In this document: positions 39 to 48,502 of the stretch, in pieces
How positions within the stretch are numbered: the first letter of the stretch is position 1
How the letters are laid out: every line of letters begins with the position of its first letter
Assembly: GCA_017622175.1 (NCBI GenBank)
Contig: JAGARQ010000043.1
Location: 1-56,400, forward strand
Reading direction: 5' to 3'
Length of the DNA: 56,400 bases
From: Bacilli bacterium
GTDB lineage: Bacteria; Bacillota_I; Bacilli_A; RF39; UBA660
The notes under the pieces: generated by a model
Told to the model about the DNA's origin: nothing
The model's input: the letters and a program-made list of their open reading frames with translations, nothing else
The model's database searches: none
Translations under genes and position numbers: made by a program

Positions 39-103
39 GTCGTTTGCATAAGTTTTTTTATTATGTTAGATTAGAAAACTGGAATATTTAGTTACTAGTG
101 TCT

Positions 104-127
104 ACCTTCTTTTAATTGAAAGGAGGT
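104..127 (+). promoter_or_regulatory. Hairpin sequestering the Shine-Dalgarno of the small hydrophobic ORF
   Basis: CCTTCTTTT (105-113) and GAAAGGAGG (118-126) pair over nine positions, two of them G-U, across an AATT loop. A104-U127 extends the stem. The whole ribosome-binding site AGGAGG (121-126) is buried in the stem. A second pairing is possible between positions 100-108 and 264-272 and would exclude this hairpin. Translation blocked by mRNA folding is typical of type I toxin messages. Confidence 0.6.
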
Positions 128-131
128 TTGA

Positions 132-227
132 GTGTTGAAGATTAGAATATTTGTCATAAATGTTTTGAAGTATGTTTCACTCATTTTATTTCTAGCGCTT
201 CTTATTATAATTGAAATAAAAAAATGA
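132..227 (+). CDS. Small hydrophobic peptide, candidate type I toxin
   Basis: This 31-residue frame starts at GTG (132) or TTG (135), 5 or 8 bases after a strong AGGAGG. The peptide is a short basic start (MLKIRIF), one hydrophobic stretch of about 18 residues ending LLIIIE, and a basic IKK tail. That is the usual plan of membrane-acting type I toxins, although I recognise no named family. The ribosome site is sequestered in a hairpin, and an opposite-strand promoter and terminator define a short RNA overlapping its 3' end. The stop is UGA, which conflicts with the suspected UGA-to-Trp reading elsewhere in the window; if UGA were sense the frame would run implausibly on towards 409. Function is inferred from arrangement only. 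Confidence 0.45.
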   Translation: MLKIRIFVINVLKYVSLILFLALLIIIEIKK

Positions 228-296
228 CACTTAATTCAATTGTGAATTAAATGTCTTACCCAAAAGGTAGACATTCAGATAACTGAATGTTCCCTT
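215..296 (-). ncRNA. Candidate antisense antitoxin RNA (about 75-80 nt)
   Basis: On the minus strand a consensus promoter (303-331) would start transcription near 296. The RNA would contain an ACATTCAG/CTGAATGT hairpin (271-290) and end at a strong terminator hairpin (226-255) followed by a U-rich tract. It overlaps the last codons and 3' region of the small hydrophobic ORF, the usual placement of a type I antitoxin. Existence of the RNA is inferred from promoter and terminator geometry. Confidence 0.5.
226..255 (-). terminator. Intrinsic terminator of the antisense RNA
   Basis: The stem is GACA plus TTAATTC on one side and GAATTAA plus TGTC on the other. Reading on the minus strand it is followed by ATTTTTTTATTT. 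There is no T-run on the plus-strand side, so the terminator is directional. Confidence 0.65.
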
Positions 297-302
297 GATT
301 TA

Positions 303-331
303 ATTATATTACTATTTATTTTGATTGTCAA
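303..331 (-). promoter_or_regulatory. Consensus sigma-A promoter for the antisense RNA
   Basis: On the minus strand TTGACA (331-326) and TATAAT (308-303) are separated by exactly 17 bases. Both boxes match the consensus perfectly, which is rare enough to indicate a strong dedicated promoter. It points away from the downstream transporter gene and toward the small ORF. Confidence 0.7.
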
Positions 332-48473: not shown

Positions 48474-48502
48474 TTGACAAATTATTTTTAATATGATATA
48501 AT
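48474..48502 (+). promoter_or_regulatory. Perfect sigma-A promoter of the large RNA
   Basis: TTGACA (48474-48479) and TATAAT (48497-48502) are both exact consensus with a 17-base spacer. A start near 48509 would begin the structured RNA. Strength fits an abundant noncoding RNA. Confidence 0.85.

Follow-up and report, generated by a model that had tools for sequence, protein, structure and literature searches.

A small gene of the kind that encodes type I toxins and a convergent antisense unit both lie within positions 44–331 of the window (the whole stretch of DNA that was analyzed, which comprises the first 56,400 bases of a contig from a 1.43-Mb draft genome and starts at the contig end). 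The antisense unit overlaps the last ~80 nt of the predicted toxin mRNA, and the next gene after the module, at 409, encodes a CDF cation-efflux transporter. The features are as follows.

44–72, + strand: toxin promoter (TTGCAT, 17-nt spacer, extended -10 element TGtTAGATT), with the transcription start expected near 79–81
79–296, + strand: toxin mRNA, with predicted ends and a fold z score of -8.0
81–103, + strand: 5′ arm of the clamp that joins the mRNA's two ends, from the minimum free energy (MFE) fold and covariation
104–127, + strand: hairpin hiding the ribosome site AGGAGG (121–126), with 10 pairs (104–113 with 118–127)
132–227, + strand: 31-residue hydrophobic peptide, the predicted toxin (GTG start, 31 codons)
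217–255, − strand: intrinsic terminator of the antisense unit, with its T-run inside the last codons of the peptide ORF
217–297, − strand: antisense RNA of about 80 nt, the predicted antitoxin (family-wide; covariance model R1, 88.7 bits)
270–293, + strand: 3′ arm of the clamp; the same bases are complementary to the 5′ hairpin of the antisense RNA
271–290, − strand: 5′ hairpin of the antisense RNA, ACATTCAG-TTAT-CTGAATGT
303–331, − strand: antisense promoter, TTGACA-17-TATAAT, a 12/12 match to consensus

The original prediction described a 31-residue hydrophobic peptide, and its ORF is present at 132–227; the peptide may be 30 residues long if translation starts at the TTG at 135, where the ATG of relatives aligns. 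All parts were also said to lie within ~230 bp, with the antisense promoter and terminator both overlapping the last codons of the ORF. The T-run of the terminator does so, but the promoter lies 76–104 bases beyond the stop codon. Promoters that match the consensus at 12/12 positions are expected 0.03 times per window and were found twice; the second is on the + strand at 48474–48502. The antisense terminator has a 13-pair stem (255–226) followed by a T-run (224–218), against 0.0 terminator-like sites in shuffled sequences, and the antisense RNA folds with a z score of -6.2. The whole toxin mRNA folds at -64.5 kcal/mol, compared with -35.9 kcal/mol for shuffles (z -8.0; 0/200). A chance origin of the locus is rejected by the promoter expectation and by comparison with shuffles of both the mRNA fold and the clamp covariation described below.

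A DNA search of relatives gave matches throughout the taxonomic family of the window, at several per genome and mostly 67–85% identical over most of the module. In an alignment of 24 relatives the layout is kept: a -10 box, a GGAA...TTGAGTGTCTACC leader, a AGAGGAGGT ribosome site, and an ORF of ~30 codons of the type MK(K/T)xxFxIKVLxxIxIILFLLIILIVVIKK, followed by AAAAAAATGACACTTAATTC...GAATTAAATGTC and then GGGTAGACATTCA...AACTGAATGTTCCCTTTTTT. A + strand hairpin near 271–290, followed by CCCTTTTTT, forms a terminator in relatives and marks the 3′ end of the toxin mRNA. The toxin promoter is kept in both congeneric species, and a TAnnnT -10 element precedes the leader in 87 of 89 modules (67 expected from shuffling). 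In the three congeneric species (the window's, G001, and G002), the antisense TTGACA-17-TATAAT is fully kept around unrelated 17-nt spacers. Most other family members have a different antisense promoter further upstream (consensus TTG..AAAaa....ttTTTATGtTAttATG), and an extended -10 element is found in the antisense promoters of 65 of 92 modules, compared with 2.4 in shuffles. In many members with this alternative promoter, a small hairpin (CAAG-GAAA-CTTG) follows it; it lies at the likely antisense 5′ end in most members and is absent from the window's genus. Compensatory changes are seen in the stem of the antisense terminator, and one module (L046, G022:C28:91169-91316) carries an extra, GC-richer hairpin of ~50 nt inside the terminator loop. 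Judged by sequence and conservation, the antisense unit is a real gene, with its own promoter and terminator and with complementarity to the toxin mRNA.

Of 291 genomes from the window's taxonomic family, the covariance model R1, built on the antisense region, matched 185 and left 106 without a match; an overlapping draw from the order gave 199 of 288 genomes, with the window's family alone among the matches listed. There are up to 14 matches per genome, and the named genomes among them are metagenome-assembled genomes of uncultured gut Bacilli/'Tenericutes', including Candidatus Ventrenecus and Candidatus Onthousia. The lineage is presumably the GTDB order RF39. In a class sample almost all R1 matches fell within the family, and in a phylum sample those outside it were weak among the matches listed. 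The weak class-level matches outside the family that were checked (L122 and L123) had no clear peptide. One copy in another family (L115, in genome G572) is a genuine module, which was probably acquired by transfer because the neighboring protein on its contig is 78% identical to one from the host's own genus. We found no R1 module in 2.9 million viral contigs, 50,697 phages, and 72,556 plasmids (IMG/VR, INPHARED, and PLSDB), and a phage or plasmid origin is therefore rejected.

An ORF ends at the antisense terminator in 99 of 127 model matches examined, and 12 of the 28 matches that lack one are cut by contig ends. Under a stricter filter, which required full upstream DNA and dropped spurious calls, 93 of the 99 remain. 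About 93 modules from many genera keep the peptide ORF, promoters, and terminators together, and the module occupies the same site in the three congeneric species; the original prediction had named the joint conservation of promoter, hairpin, and ORF in relatives as its test. Among the window's peptide gene and its orthologues in the two congeneric species, dN/dS is 0.35, 0.17, and 0.13, and pN/pS is 0.44 over 1692 pairs of family ORFs, in which third codon positions vary most. By these measures the peptide is under purifying selection. AlphaFold2 predicts a single helix (residues 2–30, pLDDT 96), and the family's peptides, although they diverge widely in sequence and in length (25–38 residues), retain a basic hydrophobic helix with a net charge of +1 to +7 (about +5 on average) and a mean peak hydropathy of 2.9. 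The locus thus encodes a small hydrophobic peptide that has a ribosome site and is selected as a protein, as is characteristic of the type I class.

It is conceivable that the main work of the antisense RNA is done in trans, on other targets, with the ORF as a by-product. One copy keeps the antisense region but has lost the peptide ORF (L109), and another has an in-frame stop within it (L082), as this explanation would allow; nearly all intact copies, however, retain both ORF and ribosome site, and the pN/pS value indicates selection on the peptide. We regard a primary role in trans as very improbable.

The original prediction also rested on a ribosome site buried in a nine-pair stem. The site is buried in the window, where its unpaired probability is 0.15 or less and the z score of the stem is -2.6, but the stem has 10 pairs (104–113/118–127). 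Across the family, the site is mostly paired, but its burial does not exceed the control (mean unpaired probability 0.23, compared with 0.23 for shuffled leaders), and so we rejected family-wide sequestration of the ribosome site as the key signal. When the 3′ arm of the clamp was removed in silico, the family mean rose from 0.23 to 0.28 (p 0.01) and the value for the window was unchanged. Burial is real in the window's copy but gives no family-wide signal above control, and the structure that is conserved is the 5′–3′ clamp.

For the mRNA ends, a pairing of 100–108 with 264–272 had been proposed. The perfect 9-bp match exists, but the favored long-distance helix is larger, at about 81–102/270–293, and ~22–27 bp of pairing between the 5′ and 3′ ends of the mRNA is found across the family. 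RNAalifold predicted this pairing from 42 diverse mRNAs when it was not supplied. Of the 27 pairs in the named clamp helix, 16 have changed on both sides, with 51 such cells compared with 11 in shuffles (0/500 shuffles as high). In this helix 92% of cells are paired, which collapses to 46% when the alignment is slid by one column; because the structure was derived from these sequences, the sliding control is biased in its favor, whereas the tally of double changes is not. The end-to-end duplex is stronger for cognate ends (-37.8 kcal/mol) than for non-cognate (-31.9 kcal/mol) or shuffled ends (-16.2 kcal/mol). The ends of diverged modules are strongly cognate, with, for example, -35.3 kcal/mol for one module's own ends and -13 to -17 kcal/mol with the three other modules tested from the window's genome. 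The mRNA tail is the complement of the mRNA's own leader as well as of the antisense RNA, which makes the two leaders near copies: the first ~27 nt of the antisense RNA nearly repeat the mRNA 5′ leader, so that both compete for the same 3′ arm. The putative antitoxin resembles the clamp's 5′ arm and could displace it.

Copies that are multiple, dispersed, and intergenic, that carry a long inverted repeat, and that in several cases lie at contig ends, as repeats do, could also be MITE-like or REPIN-like mobile elements, in which the paired mRNA ends would be terminal inverted repeats and the ORF incidental. Conservation nevertheless extends beyond the repeats into both promoters, which does not fit a MITE, and the dN/dS values disfavor a neutral ORF; we rejected a MITE as the main reading. 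Moreover, the copies in the window's genome are strongly diverged and not products of recent transposition, one copy has held its site through dS 0.2–0.6, and no transposase-like gene recurs beside them. A mobile repeat is thus improbable, though a little less so than a role of the antisense RNA mainly in trans. The window's genome contains at least four further modules, of which two encode MxKKDLLITSLILIIFSLIALLFIQ and a tandem pair encodes 29-residue forms; the diverged sister loci L112, L113, and L114 (contigs C50, C13, and C42; 25- and 29-residue peptides, two in tandem) have RNA ends that changed in step. Tandem arrays of 3–5 modules occur elsewhere (L193:1206-2776, L138:6694-7531, and L177:377-1170), and some adjacent peptides are very different.

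The window's copy is flanked by a NUDIX hydrolase gene, which lies on contig C38 of the same genome, and by the CDF transporter gene, and the order NUDIX–module–transporter is common to the three congeneric species. The end of C38 (G000:C38:1-36) is joined to positions 1–36 of the window, and C38 very probably precedes it, as the gene order in the two congeneric species confirms. The contig break falls inside a terminator-like palindrome common to both contig ends. At 3–66 on the − strand there is a weak, sub-threshold Rfam match to the Enterococcus sRNA RefA9 (E 0.02), probably caused by the terminator hairpin. The neighbors of other copies are varied, ordinary chromosomal genes, which we take from their sequences to be recA-, SMC-, L21-, and acetate-kinase-like. 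No mobility or transposase-like gene recurs across the sampled copies, which argues against a prophage or transposon neighborhood, and a leader peptide of the CDF transporter is rejected because other copies adjoin other genes.

The conserved peptide, and the site beside the transporter kept in three species, would suit a membrane peptide that is small, nontoxic, and useful to the cell (by modulating a transporter, for example), and whose level the antisense RNA merely tunes. But the neighbors are unrelated housekeeping genes that differ between copies, the sequence varies widely while the basic hydrophobic helix is kept, and decayed copies exist, a combination typical of type I toxins. We consider a nontoxic role unlikely, if slightly less so than a mobile repeat.

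By every feature that sequence can address, the locus is a type I toxin-antitoxin module. We consider it highly likely that it is a chromosomal module of a new, lineage-specific, multicopy family, in which we infer the toxicity of the peptide and the transcription of both RNAs. The joint conservation of the module in relatives and the lack of a match to known families support this reading, which is that of the original prediction; it had also suggested that the peptide might belong to a new family, and six libraries gave no match. A Pfam profile search that covered Fst, Hok, Ldr, Ibs, and other type I toxins, with members of several subtypes, returned 0 significant families; NCBIfam, PHROGs, PADLOC, and PDB had no match to the peptide family; and at gathering score Rfam had no antisense family, tRNAs being the only matches.

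The arrangement is similar to that of Fst/RNAII (par of pAD1), which has convergent genes, a common terminator region, repeated elements, and a toxin of ~30 residues, and in which the repeats make the 5′ ends of the two RNAs complementary. The module shares the first three of these properties and the peptide length, but its repeat is inverted, so that both RNAs have similar 5′ ends, and it has no Pfam match.

The Bacillus subtilis systems bsrG/SR4, txpA/RatA, and yonT/SR6, together with CD2517.1/RCd8 of C. difficile, combine a small membrane peptide, a convergent antisense RNA that overlaps the 3′ end of the toxin mRNA, and a stem that holds the ribosome site (PMC6562991, PMC6563280). We found the same 3′ overlap as in the bsrG/txpA type, but unlike these systems the module has no peptide or RNA match to curated families. 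Its peptides are shorter (25–38 residues, compared with 50–53 in the C. difficile cases), its copy number is far higher, and its antisense leader copies the mRNA leader. In aapA/IsoA of Helicobacter pylori and in hok/Sok, the mRNA is locked by a 5′–3′ long-distance interaction, and aapA has several module-specific chromosomal copies (PMC6733600). The module resembles these in its conserved clamp and its several chromosomal copies, but the peptides are unrelated in sequence and the bacterial class differs. In aapA3 it is the region of the ribosome site in the trimmed mRNA that the antisense RNA masks, whereas the module's covers the 3′ end, which is the clamp's 3′ arm. The best reading of the sequence is that the module combines a Bacillus-type 3′-overlapping antitoxin with a hok/AapA-type clamp.

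On this combined model, the strongly promoted antisense RNA would bind the final ~80 nt of the toxin mRNA and bring about its decay, like RatA and SR4 in Bacillus. The clamp and the local stem over the ribosome site would silence unpaired mRNA until it is trimmed or refolded, as in hok and AapA, and a fall in the antisense level would allow the peptide to be made and to insert into the membrane, with depolarization or growth arrest. As the antisense RNA covers the 3′ arm that hok/AapA-type trimming removes, the decay step and the clamp step cannot both be borrowed unchanged.

Type I systems have been reported from few phyla, and many occur in under 5% of species there; the difficulty of finding them is part of the reason (PMC12390103). 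The family described here is present in about two thirds of the genomes sampled from a single gut lineage. With hundreds of copies to compare, covariation reveals the design of clamp and antisense RNA. The copies are a rich natural resource for exploring how many modules can coexist without cross-talk, and they raise the question of why streamlined genomes of ~1.2 Mb retain up to 14 of them. A bolder proposal, which we put forward tentatively and at somewhat less than even odds, is that about two thirds of the lineage's genomes carry many type I modules that are mutually orthogonal and whose antitoxin RNA is a copy of the mRNA 5′ leader. If this is true, the mRNA leader, the mRNA tail, and the antitoxin would evolve as a locked triple with a private code for each copy, and tandem arrays would coexist without cross-talk.
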